Below are positions 1,728 through 4,682 of a stretch of DNA of 5,742 bases, one piece after another. Positions within the stretch are counted from its first letter, which is position 1; every line of letters starts with the position of its first letter. Below the pieces are notes generated by a model. The model was given only the letters and a program-made list of their open reading frames with translations. It searched no databases and had not been told where the DNA came from. The stretch is from Candidatus Atribacteria bacterium (GTDB lineage: Bacteria > Atribacterota > JALVIU01): positions 1-5,742 of the forward strand of contig JALVIU010000076.1 of the NCBI GenBank assembly GCA_027028665.1, written 5' to 3'. The position numbers were made by a program, and so were the translations under genes.

Positions 1728-2357
1728 CTACTTTTTAAAATATTTATATATATACTTCTCACAAAAGGCATACAGGGCATATACTATAAATATAGCGCCA
1801 AATACATCAAGAGAATAGTGAACTCTCATAAGTAAGAGGCCTAATGCAATGGATAGTGTAAAAAATAAAGCAAGCCACTTAAAGAATTTATTATCCTTTA
1901 TAGCGAGAAATATGAGAAAGGGAAAACCTGTATGTCCAGAGGGGAAGAGATCTCGTGTACCGAAATACCATCCAGGAAAATGAAAGTAGGGATAGTCATC
2001 TATTCTTGGATATGGTGGAGGAAGTTGGGTAAGTGAGAGGAAAAATGCCCTTACAAAGTTATAAACTCCTACCAGAAATATTATATAAGGTAGATCTTTC
2101 CGTGCAAAAAATATGAAATAGGTAAATACAATTATAGAAAATATTACAGGAAACAAGGATGCCAGTATATTTGCATTTACAAGGGGAAGCATATTGTGAA
2201 TAGTATCATTCAATGGACATTGATAGGTAAATTTCTCTACAAATGCACCTGCAAGCTCTGCCACATATAAACCGGATATAAGTATCACCATTGAGAAAAG
2301 GTAGAGCCAGAATCTCTCCTTTATATCGTAATAAAGCTCTTTTAAATGTTTTACCAT
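1728..2357 (-). CDS. PAP2/sphingomyelin-synthase-like membrane phosphatase or phosphotransferase
   Basis: Integral membrane protein of 209 residues with about six hydrophobic segments (roughly 17-36, 65-84, 89-109, 141-153, 158-177, 183-200). The active-site motifs are F-P-S-G-H-T (H142) and H-Y-S-L-D (H180, D184), the His-His-Asp set of the PAP2 superfamily, in which one His forms a phospho-enzyme. The classical first PAP2 motif (KX6RP) is absent. Instead there is VRAFFLSLTQLPPP (102-115), resembling the conserved block of the sphingomyelin synthase-like branch (PAP2_C). That suggests a lipid phosphatase or head-group transferase acting at the outer face of the cytoplasmic membrane; the substrate cannot be read from sequence. 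The gene has a GAGGT site (2365-2369) seven bases before ATG 2357, stop TAG, and its own promoter at 2427-2455. Seen: motifs and helices. Family placement: moderately sure. Reaction: inferred. Confidence 0.85.
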   Translation of the reverse strand: MVKHLKELYYDIKERFWLYLFSMVILISGLYVAELAGAFVEKFTYQCPLNDTIHNMLPLVNANILASLFPVIFSIIVFTYFIFFARKDLPYIIFLVGVYNFVRAFFLSLTQLPPPYPRIDDYPYFHFPGWYFGTRDLFPSGHTGFPFLIFLAIKDNKFFKWLALFFTLSIALGLLLMRVHYSLDVFGAIFIVYALYAFCEKYIYKYFKK

Positions 2358-2426: not shown

Positions 2427-2455
2427 ATTATATAAAGATGCAGCCATAAAGTCAA
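2427..2455 (-). promoter_or_regulatory. Sigma-70 type promoter of the PAP2 gene
   Basis: On the minus strand TTGACT (2455-2450) and TATAAT (2432-2427) are separated by exactly 17 bases, an almost perfect housekeeping promoter. The start would be near 2420, with a leader of about 60 bases that ends in the GAGGT ribosome site before ATG 2357. No leader hairpin is evident. Confidence 0.8.
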
Positions 2456-2541: not shown

Positions 2542-2585
2542 GATGTATCTATTTTTTTGTAAATTTACAAAAAAATAGATACATC
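2542..2585. repeat. Perfect 44-bp palindrome with no spacer
   Basis: Two 22-base arms (2542-2563 and 2564-2585) are exact reverse complements with no central loop. The arm starts GATGTATCTA, continues with a run of seven T and ends GTAAA; the centre is TAAATTTA. Symmetry stops at 2541/2586 (G opposite A). An outer, spaced 6-bp pair (2535-2540 TCTCAA, 2605-2610 TTGAGA) adds looser symmetry. It lies 33 bases upstream of the -35 box of the DUF505 promoter and about 87 bases behind the PAP2 promoter. Neither strand has a U-run after it. Possible roles: binding site for a multimeric regulator, cruciform, or relic of a palindromic mobile element. Confidence 0.95.
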
Positions 2586-2618: not shown

Positions 2619-2647
2619 TTGAAATTTTCATCTATATTTGATAAAAT
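2619..2647 (+). promoter_or_regulatory. Sigma-70 type promoter of the DUF505 gene, with extended -10
   Basis: TTGAAA (2619-2624) and TAAAAT (2642-2647) are separated by 17 bases, each one mismatch from consensus. TG at 2639-2640 supplies an extended -10. The predicted start is near 2654, giving a short leader of about 27 bases containing the ribosome site. Confidence 0.78.
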
Positions 2648-2680: not shown

Positions 2681-4603
2681 ATGATCATTAAAAAGGAACA
2701 TGCACTTGCTTTACTAAATATCCTGGAAAAGGATAAAGAAAATACTACATTTATAGTAGCTGAAACAAAAGATTTAGCGCCATATGAAGAGCTCGAGCTA
2801 CAGAATCTTGTAAGACTGGAAAAACCTATGGAATATGCACTTACCTATTGGGGAAAAGGAATTTCTGAATTACTTACAAATATGGTCAATAAAGACCTGA
2901 TCCATCATCCTGATACCTGGGATCCTGAGTTTAGATGGATTGGCACAGAGGTGCTTTCTATGATTGAAAGTGCCATAAGAAATAATGACATCCCCGGGAC
3001 ACTTACGGAAAAGGAACTTGAAAAGAGAGGTTTTGTTAGAGAGGAAAAAGGGATAAAAGTAATAAGTGGGTATGCAAAAGATGTTTATAATATATTTAAA
3101 AATGCAAAACCTCGTCTCGTTGTGTCTAAGGAACTTTACAACTATATACAAAAGACACCGAAAGGACCTGCAAGGTTTTCATTGTTACCCCAAGAGGGGA
3201 GGTTTCCTCTTATCCTTGAGTCTATGAGGCTTATTGCACTTTCTGTGCCTGCACATGATGTTTATACATTTACAGGTCTGGGCCAGGCAGTAAAAGAGAC
3301 ATGCAACGTTCTTGCTGCTTCTTTAGATACAGTGATTTCTGAGGATATTATGTATTCTCTTGTAAAGATTATGGATGAAGGACCAGAGTCCCTTACTCCA
3401 GAGGAAAAAGAAGTGCTCGGTGCCCTTGCATATATAGATGGAGAGGGTAATCCCTTACCTGCAGGGGAATCCCTTATTGAGGTCTATCATATTTGGAAGG
3501 AAAAGGAATTTAGACCTGTTAAGACTTTTGATATAGATATTTTAGATGCAGAGGTTTTAAAATCTGTAGATAATATCTGGAAAAAATATAAAGAGAATCC
3601 TGCACTTCTTCCTACTATTGATGAAATTATAAATGTTATGTTCCTGCGTCCTATAAAAGAATACAAGCATCTATTTGAATATTATGGAAGAAGGATATAT
3701 CAAGATCTGGGATACCATAAAAAGGAAGAGATTAGAAAGAAATTCGATGAAGTAAAAACCATTGAAGAGGTATTTAAGAGCTATTATGAAAAGGGTGGAA
3801 AGTGGAGTGAGAAAATAAAAGAGGTAATCCAGCATGCATTATATACCCTTGAGTCCTTCGATCTCATTCTTACAGGATGGGAAGAAGGCAAAAAGGTATA
3901 CTTTCTTACAGAGCCAGGAAAGAAGGTAGTAGAAGACCTTGCAAGAAGAGGTGTAAGAGATATTCCATCTTCTGGTGTTAAAGCAATTACTATATCTTAT
4001 AGGGAAATATCGTCTCCCAACCTCTCATGGTATGAAGAGGCAAAGGAGAGACATCTTGTAGGGACAGGAGAACCTACAGAGGCAGGAAAGTTGTACGCAG
4101 ATCTTGCATACAGTATCAATAGATTGCCACATCTTACCCGATTTGAACTCAAGGTACTTCATAGGATCCCTGATAAAGGCTTTTTTGTAAATAATTTATA
4201 TAAAGAATTTGATGAAACCTGGCATGAGGAAATACAATATGCATTGAGAAAACTTGAGGCAAGAGGATATATAGACATCTTACAAAATGAGGCAATAATA
4301 CTTACAGAACCTGGTAAACTTATAAAGCGTGCACTCGCTGGTGCACCAGAGAGTATGGCAAATCCTATTACGCCACTTGTGGTAAAGATACTTAAAGCTT
4401 TGTATGAAGTAGGTGGATTATATGAAAAGGAAAAGAAGATAAGGGTACTCCCGAAGAATATGGCAGAGGCCCTAAAGCTTACAGGACTTGATGCTGAGAC
4501 CTTTGAAAAAGAGCTTCTCATTGCAAGAGTTGCAAAACTTATAGGAAAGACCAGTGTAAATGAAGCAGGTATTCTTGTACTTCAGAGTATAGGTGTTATG
4601 TAA
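2681..4603 (+). CDS. DUF505-family protein, array of winged-helix-like modules
   Basis: A 640-residue soluble protein without signal peptide or membrane segments, rich in Lys and Glu. I recognise the family (DUF505) from the N-terminus IIKKEHALALL, the block FRWIGTEVLSMIESA and the later GRRIYQDLG; its function is unknown. The signature T-x-x-G-x-x-hydrophobic, which in winged-helix folds closes the wing and starts the next helix, recurs: T55-G58 (ALTYWGK), T198-G201 (FTGLGQ), L259-G262 (LPAGES), T410-G413 (LTEPGKK), T466-G469 (PTEAGK), T542-G545 (LTEPGK), and a variant N627-G630 (NEAGI). Several are preceded by a helix such as ALYTLESFDL or ALRKLEARGY, a plausible recognition helix. No catalytic or metal motif is visible. 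The gene is monocistronic by appearance: own promoter, strong ribosome site, strong terminator. Inference: nucleic-acid binding or scaffold protein, possibly autoregulated through the upstream palindrome. Family call fairly sure; function open. Confidence 0.78.
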   Translation: MIIKKEHALALLNILEKDKENTTFIVAETKDLAPYEELELQNLVRLEKPMEYALTYWGKGISELLTNMVNKDLIHHPDTWDPEFRWIGTEVLSMIESAIRNNDIPGTLTEKELEKRGFVREEKGIKVISGYAKDVYNIFKNAKPRLVVSKELYNYIQKTPKGPARFSLLPQEGRFPLILESMRLIALSVPAHDVYTFTGLGQAVKETCNVLAASLDTVISEDIMYSLVKIMDEGPESLTPEEKEVLGALAYIDGEGNPLPAGESLIEVYHIWKEKEFRPVKTFDIDILDAEVLKSVDNIWKKYKENPALLPTIDEIINVMFLRPIKEYKHLFEYYGRRIYQDLGYHKKEEIRKKFDEVKTIEEVFKSYYEKGGKWSEKIKEVIQHALYTLESFDLILTGWEEGKKVYFLTEPGKKVVEDLARRGVRDIPSSGVKAITISYREISSPNLSWYEEAKERHLVGTGEPTEAGKLYADLAYSINRLPHLTRFELKVLHRIPDKGFFVNNLYKEFDETWHEEIQYALRKLEARGYIDILQNEAIILTEPGKLIKRALAGAPESMANPITPLVVKILKALYEVGGLYEKEKKIRVLPKNMAEALKLTGLDAETFEKELLIARVAKLIGKTSVNEAGILVLQSIGVM

Positions 4604-4608
4604 GTTCC

Positions 4609-4649
4609 AAAAGAGAGACCTCATAAAGTTAAAGAGGTCTCTCTTTTTT
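4609..4649 (+). terminator. Intrinsic terminator of the DUF505 gene
   Basis: Arms 4609-4622 and 4634-4647 pair perfectly over 14 bp (core GAGAGACCTC / GAGGTCTCTC) around an 11-base loop, followed by and partly including a run of six T at 4644-4649. It begins six bases after the DUF505 stop. The T-run also forms part of the left arm of the next inverted repeat. Confidence 0.92.
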
Positions 4650-4682
4650 CATATTTTGTGTTATAATACAAAATATGAAAAA
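4645..4682. repeat. 15-bp inverted repeat enclosing the lipoprotein -10 box and start codon
   Basis: Arms 4645-4659 (TTTTTCATATTTTGT) and 4668-4682 (ACAAAATATGAAAAA) are exact reverse complements with an 8-base spacer, GTTATAAT, that holds the -10 box. The right arm contains the ATG at 4675 and the first two Lys codons; the left arm begins inside the upstream terminator T-run. As DNA it could be an operator covering the promoter. As read-through RNA it would bury the start codon. Confidence 0.9.
4659..4667 (+). promoter_or_regulatory. Extended -10 promoter of the lipoprotein gene, predicted leaderless start
   Basis: TGTTATAAT is a perfect extended -10. The -35 position (4639-4644) falls in the terminator stem and has no match. 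With the usual 6-7 base distance, transcription would start at about 4673-4675, at or within a base or two of ATG 4675. No GGAGG-like site precedes that ATG, which agrees with a leaderless mRNA. Confidence 0.68.

Follow-up and report, generated by a model that had tools for sequence, protein, structure and literature searches.

A perfect 44-bp palindrome in a divergent control region of an Atribacteria genome rich in long perfect inverted repeats

Between two divergent genes of a Candidatus Atribacteria bacterium lies a perfect palindrome of 44 bp, at positions 2542-2585 of contig JALVIU010000076.1 (assembly GCA_027028665.1; the window, that is, the whole stretch analysed, is 5,742 nucleotides). 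What is such an element doing in a promoter region: is it bound by a regulator, does it act in a transcript, or is it the product of a process that makes palindromes regardless of function? A sequence-only reading of the window had proposed a role at the level of DNA, with autoregulation by the downstream DUF505 gene or membership of a mobile repeat family among the possibilities. Here we examine the element itself, the other long palindromes of the same genome, and the DUF505 protein and its relatives.

The palindrome and its surroundings

The gap at 2358-2680, 323 bp in length and 79% A+T (121 A, 134 T, 38 G, 30 C), separates a PAP2 gene on the minus strand from a DUF505 gene on the plus strand. 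The relevant features are as follows.

1728..2357, minus strand: PAP2-superfamily membrane protein, 209 aa (PF14360, E 2.2e-07)
2455..2427, minus strand: predicted sigma-70-type promoter of the PAP2 gene, TTGACT-17-TATAAT (consensus match only)
2542..2585, no strand: palindrome, 18% G+C, with T7 (2552-2558), core GTAAATTTAC and A7 (2569-2575), and outer arms GATGTATCTA / TAGATACATC
2542-2563 and 2564-2585: palindrome arms, 100% complementary
2619..2647, plus strand: predicted sigma-70-type promoter of the DUF505 gene, TTGAAA-17-TAAAAT with TG before the -10 (consensus match only)
2681..4603, plus strand: DUF505 protein, 640 aa (PF04458, E 4.8e-226), with ATG at 2681, the ribosome-binding-site-like AGAGGTGAT directly before it, and tandem winged-helix modules in the predicted model

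The palindrome is exactly as first described: its arms, GATGTATCTATTTTTTTGTAAA and TTTACAAAAAAATAGATACATC, are 22 nt each and meet with no spacer and no mismatch, making it the longest perfect palindrome in the window. Only 4 of the 22 arm base pairs are G-C. It far exceeds chance: when the bases of the gap were shuffled 20,000 times the longest zero-spacer arm was 14 nt, against the 22 observed, and zero-spacer arms in Markov sequences of genome size did not exceed 11 nt. As single-stranded DNA the element folds at -16.8 kcal/mol (z -11), and the computed RNA fold would be a 20-bp hairpin with a 4-base loop.

The predicted DUF505 promoter begins 33 bp downstream of the end of the palindrome, which itself sits 86 bp upstream of the predicted PAP2 promoter. 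Taking these promoters as the consensus matches that they are, the palindrome lies between them, overlaps neither and is excluded from both predicted transcripts; it is thus a symmetric site in a predicted promoter region, as a palindromic operator would be. A terminator-like tail was sought on both strands and none was found, again in agreement with the first description. Furthermore, the T7-core-A7 polarity is the reverse of the terminator order, and the element departs from an intrinsic terminator in the low G+C content of its arms, in carrying A7 in the 3' arm and in lying 5' of both genes. Comparison with known RNA families gave chance-level microRNA matches only, below gathering scores, of the kind given by any long hairpin. 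No tRNA or small gene was found within the gap. No gene next to the palindrome encodes a regulator with an evident DNA-binding domain, the response regulator at 1268-1645 being a lone receiver domain. Ordinary terminator-like inverted repeats do occur in the window, at 1210-1263 between convergent genes and at 4609-4647 after DUF505.

Contigs of this genome share identical ends of exactly 127 bases, so the assembler's word far exceeded the palindrome in length and spanned its flanks too. Intact genes flank the element on both sides, and the G+C content of the window (35%) and its tetranucleotides are typical of the genome (about 36% G+C). On these grounds a fold-back artefact, or a foreign or mis-binned contig, is unlikely.

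All searches of the genome covered its 549,848 readable bases, contigs under about 3 kb being read as N. Within this portion there is no second copy of the 22-base arm at up to 3 mismatches and no other good match to the 301-bp palindrome region. The 36-base core is absent from 49 other genomes of the phylum, the arm is absent from viral contigs, and phages and plasmids gave chance-level matches only. A repeat family of the REP or MITE type is therefore ruled out by the single copy in the readable genome. The proposed DNA-level role is partly supported: it keeps its support from the position between predicted divergent promoters, outside both predicted transcripts, and from the lack of terminator character, and loses the mobile repeat that had been included in it. 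Regulon searches with the outer half-sites and with the inner 18 bp returned nothing convincing in the genome; the inner 18 bp had 10 other weak matches, as against 3 for a control pattern, all with 2-3 mismatches. No regulon is visible, with no second site in the readable genome, though an operator with a single target would need none.

Long perfect palindromes across the genome

The readable bases of the genome hold 41 distinct perfect inverted repeats whose arms measure 12 bp or more and whose spacers do not exceed 8 bp; nine of the genome's palindromes besides the one at 2542-2585 are spacerless with arms of 15 bp or more. At an arm length of 16 bp, perfect palindromes outnumber imperfect ones, with 17 distinct perfect loci against 10 one-mismatch and 12 two-mismatch loci; the raw count of perfect ones is 18, since one locus lies in an end that two contigs share. 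The same scan found 4 perfect palindromes in 280 kb of two genomes elsewhere in the phylum, whereas 117 kb from a genome outside it and 299 kb of DUF505 loci gave none. That this genome is rich in long perfect palindromes is new here, and it lowers the surprise of the 44-bp element, whose length and perfection are not special in such company.

Most of the long palindromes have G+C cores and the A-stem-T order of a bidirectional terminator, and 25 of the 36 intergenic ones have a gene 3' end within 60 bp. The inner 8 bp of palindromes at 3' ends are richer in G+C than those of palindromes at 5' ends (25 vs 11, p 0.015, in a post hoc grouping with simple ORFs as gene calls). The terminator-like palindromes have arms of up to 25 bp, beyond what termination requires. 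Three palindromes (L138:2692-2739, L133:3042-3091 and L069:12977-13026), perfect, spacerless and 48-50 bp long, have G+C cores and lie close to the 3' ends of genes or at them; they look like terminator-like elements of unusual length and perfection. The palindrome at 2542-2585 shares with elements such as L138:2692-2739 its perfection, its lack of a spacer and its length of 40-50 bp; it differs in having an A+T core and T-stem-A order 5' of two divergent genes, where those have G+C cores and A-stem-T order at gene 3' ends. It is among the few with this reversed order, and has the longest A run in the 3' arm.

A smaller set of palindromes in the genome is A+T-rich and lies 5' of genes.

L060:6255-6280: TAAATTAGTTTATATAAACTAATTTA, 26 bp, perfect, 32 bp before a ROK-family repressor gene (winged helix)
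L063:15112: ATAATTATTCTTAACTAAGAATAATTAT, 23 bp before a ferritin-like gene
L133:1703: TTCAATATTATATATGCTATATAATATTGAA, before a MalK-type ABC ATPase gene
L132:1360: ATTATCTTGAACAAATGTTCAAGATAAT, before a sugar-binding protein gene

The first of these is likely the autoregulatory operator of the ROK repressor gene, and, judged by sequence and position, the low-G+C palindromes of the whole set look like operators.

If one arm were corrected against the other, perfect palindromes would be expected to exceed one-mismatch ones, as they do here, and template switching is known both to create and to repair perfect hairpin arms (PMC8794818, PMC7202029). An SbcD fragment lies at a contig end, so that loss of SbcCD is not supported as the cause of the many palindromes. 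Tentatively, and with the odds against it, an active process in this genome and perhaps in the phylum, either template switching or selection, may turn inverted repeats of all kinds, both terminators and sites on the promoter side, into long perfect spacerless palindromes, with 2542-2585 as an extreme promoter-side case. A published survey of perfect inverted repeats (PMC13155455) describes perfect arms like those seen here and an enrichment of bacterial repeats near gene ends, but stresses terminator-side repeats with 4-5 bp spacers, whereas the present element is spacerless and on the promoter side. Since perfect palindromes outnumber near-perfect ones here, long perfect arms should in this genome not be taken to signal special function. 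The genome-wide excess is a more unusual lead than a single-copy candidate operator, and makes the lineage a natural test case for how replication creates and maintains perfect inverted repeats.

A candidate operator and its alternatives

We put at roughly 0.48 the probability that 2542-2585 serves, within the divergent control region, as an operator-type DNA site recognised by a dimeric or tetrameric regulator encoded elsewhere in the genome, with its length and perfection probably acquired through template switching. Such a regulator would bind the two-fold symmetric, A+T-rich candidate site, for which part of the 44 bp would suffice for a dimer. The centre of the palindrome is about 90 bp upstream of the predicted DUF505 start and about 143 bp upstream of the predicted PAP2 start; from there the bound protein could activate, bend or loop the DNA rather than merely cover a promoter. 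The extra length and the perfection would come from the process shared with the other long palindromes of the genome, probably strand-switching during replication, in which one arm is copied onto the other. Many palindromes of this genome are made perfect or kept so, and these properties therefore need not reflect the protein. We infer that a protein may bind here and affect transcription, and that template switching is the probable cause of the perfect arms.

This reading is favoured by an arm length far beyond chance, by the location 5' of both genes and outside both predicted transcripts, by the reversed polarity, by the richer G+C cores of palindromes at 3' than at 5' ends, by the A+T-rich palindromes found 5' of the ROK, ferritin-like and sugar-transport genes, and by the excess of perfect over imperfect arms. 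The element resembles the operators of dimeric bacterial regulators, for example of the ROK/XylR and MarR types, in being two-fold symmetric, A+T-rich, upstream and outside the predicted transcripts, although its 44 bp of spacerless perfect symmetry exceed what known operators need. Against it stand that excess over the usual operator length, the want of a second site and of an adjoining regulator gene, and the failure to find the palindrome upstream of DUF505 in relatives (below). On this reading 2542-2585 may be a control site of two genes about which little is known.

The main rival is that the palindrome has no dedicated function, template switching having created or perfected it at a short, A+T-rich inverted repeat in intergenic DNA of low constraint. 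The excess of perfect over one-mismatch loci, the terminator-like arms longer than termination calls for, and the lack of any conserved or second copy all speak for it; its place in a control region shared by divergent genes, and the A+T-rich palindromes ahead of other genes of regulated type, fit function. We regard a functionless palindrome as possible but rather unlikely, and each of a transcript hairpin, DUF505 autoregulation and a cruciform as less likely than that.

An element acting in RNA, whether as a hairpin in a longer 5' leader or as a terminator or insulator against stray transcripts from either side, would accord with the predicted 20-bp hairpin and with the preference of long palindromes in this genome for gene 3' ends. 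We consider it improbable: the stem is followed by no T run on either strand, the T7/A7 order is reversed, G-C pairs are few, and no predicted promoter transcribes 2542-2585 in a gap that holds neither small gene nor tRNA.

That DUF505 binds the palindrome upstream of its own gene was a natural idea, the protein having been read as containing several winged-helix-like modules, and at the level of a predicted model these are confirmed. The AlphaFold2 model (pLDDT 89, pTM 0.86) consists of repeated helix-helix-strand-strand modules, of which residues 482-559 and 284-424 match winged helices of the MarR, PadR, MepR and DtxR types (Z about 9-10 over about 75 residues, rmsd about 2-3 A). A whole-chain relative was not found at significance by Foldseek (best E 0.12), nor did a sequence search of solved structures with DUF505 return anything significant. 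With a pI of 5.8 and a net charge of about -10 the protein is acidic, and the helices expected to enter the major groove are net negative, the conserved FDETWxEE segment included, so that in the model its charge does not suggest DNA binding.

The relatives argue in the same direction. None of the 49 further genomes of the phylum yielded DUF505; the closest relatives share about 60% identity and belong mainly to Aquificota. Among 44 relatives at 35-62% identity, none (0/44) has a similar long palindrome upstream, a count in which some contigs offer less than 200 bp of upstream sequence and the DUF505 gene of the more distant relatives apparently stands behind another gene in an operon. A DUF505-linked operator conserved at long range is accordingly rejected. 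The search for the 22-base arm that had been suggested thus revealed neither a many-copy family nor, at this distance, conservation upstream of orthologues, and autoregulation, unsupported so far, is in our estimate decidedly improbable.

A cruciform that itself affects the promoters under negative supercoiling is very improbable. The element is spacerless and A+T-rich and folds well as single-stranded DNA, and divergent transcription raises negative supercoiling between genes. A gyrase-like gene pair was recognised by sequence at L078, and reverse gyrase was not found at the family cut-off, only a topoisomerase part being detected, an absence that is not firm in an incomplete genome. Against this, 44 bp is short for efficient cruciform extrusion in vivo.

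Finally, a perfect inverted repeat in an intergenic position could bring to mind a mobile or repeated element of the REP or MITE type, or else an artefact of assembly. Both are nearly excluded by the single copy in the genome, the absence of the element from the phylum, viral contigs, phages and plasmids, the lack of a target-site duplication in the flanks, the 127-base assembly word and the intact genes on both sides.

Further observations

The upstream regions of many DUF505 relatives contain, by eye, a good sigma-70-type promoter. A short dyad unrelated to the palindrome, TTTTATCAT..ATGATAAAA, stands some 130 bp ahead of DUF505 in several Desulfurobacteriaceae. In Caldisericaceae, Chloroflexota, Hippea and others (L038-L040, L042, L043, L052, L057), a conserved frame ending ...RYIxxWLxPTIYLFDxxIAExxxK... 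directly precedes DUF505, with which it probably forms one operon; this gene does not adjoin DUF505 in the window. Also, an A+T-rich inverted repeat with 15-nt arms and an 8-nt spacer lies at 4645-4682, directly before the ATG at 4675 of a lipoprotein-like gene. It carries TATAAT in its middle, and the short distance from there to the ATG would suggest a leaderless transcript.
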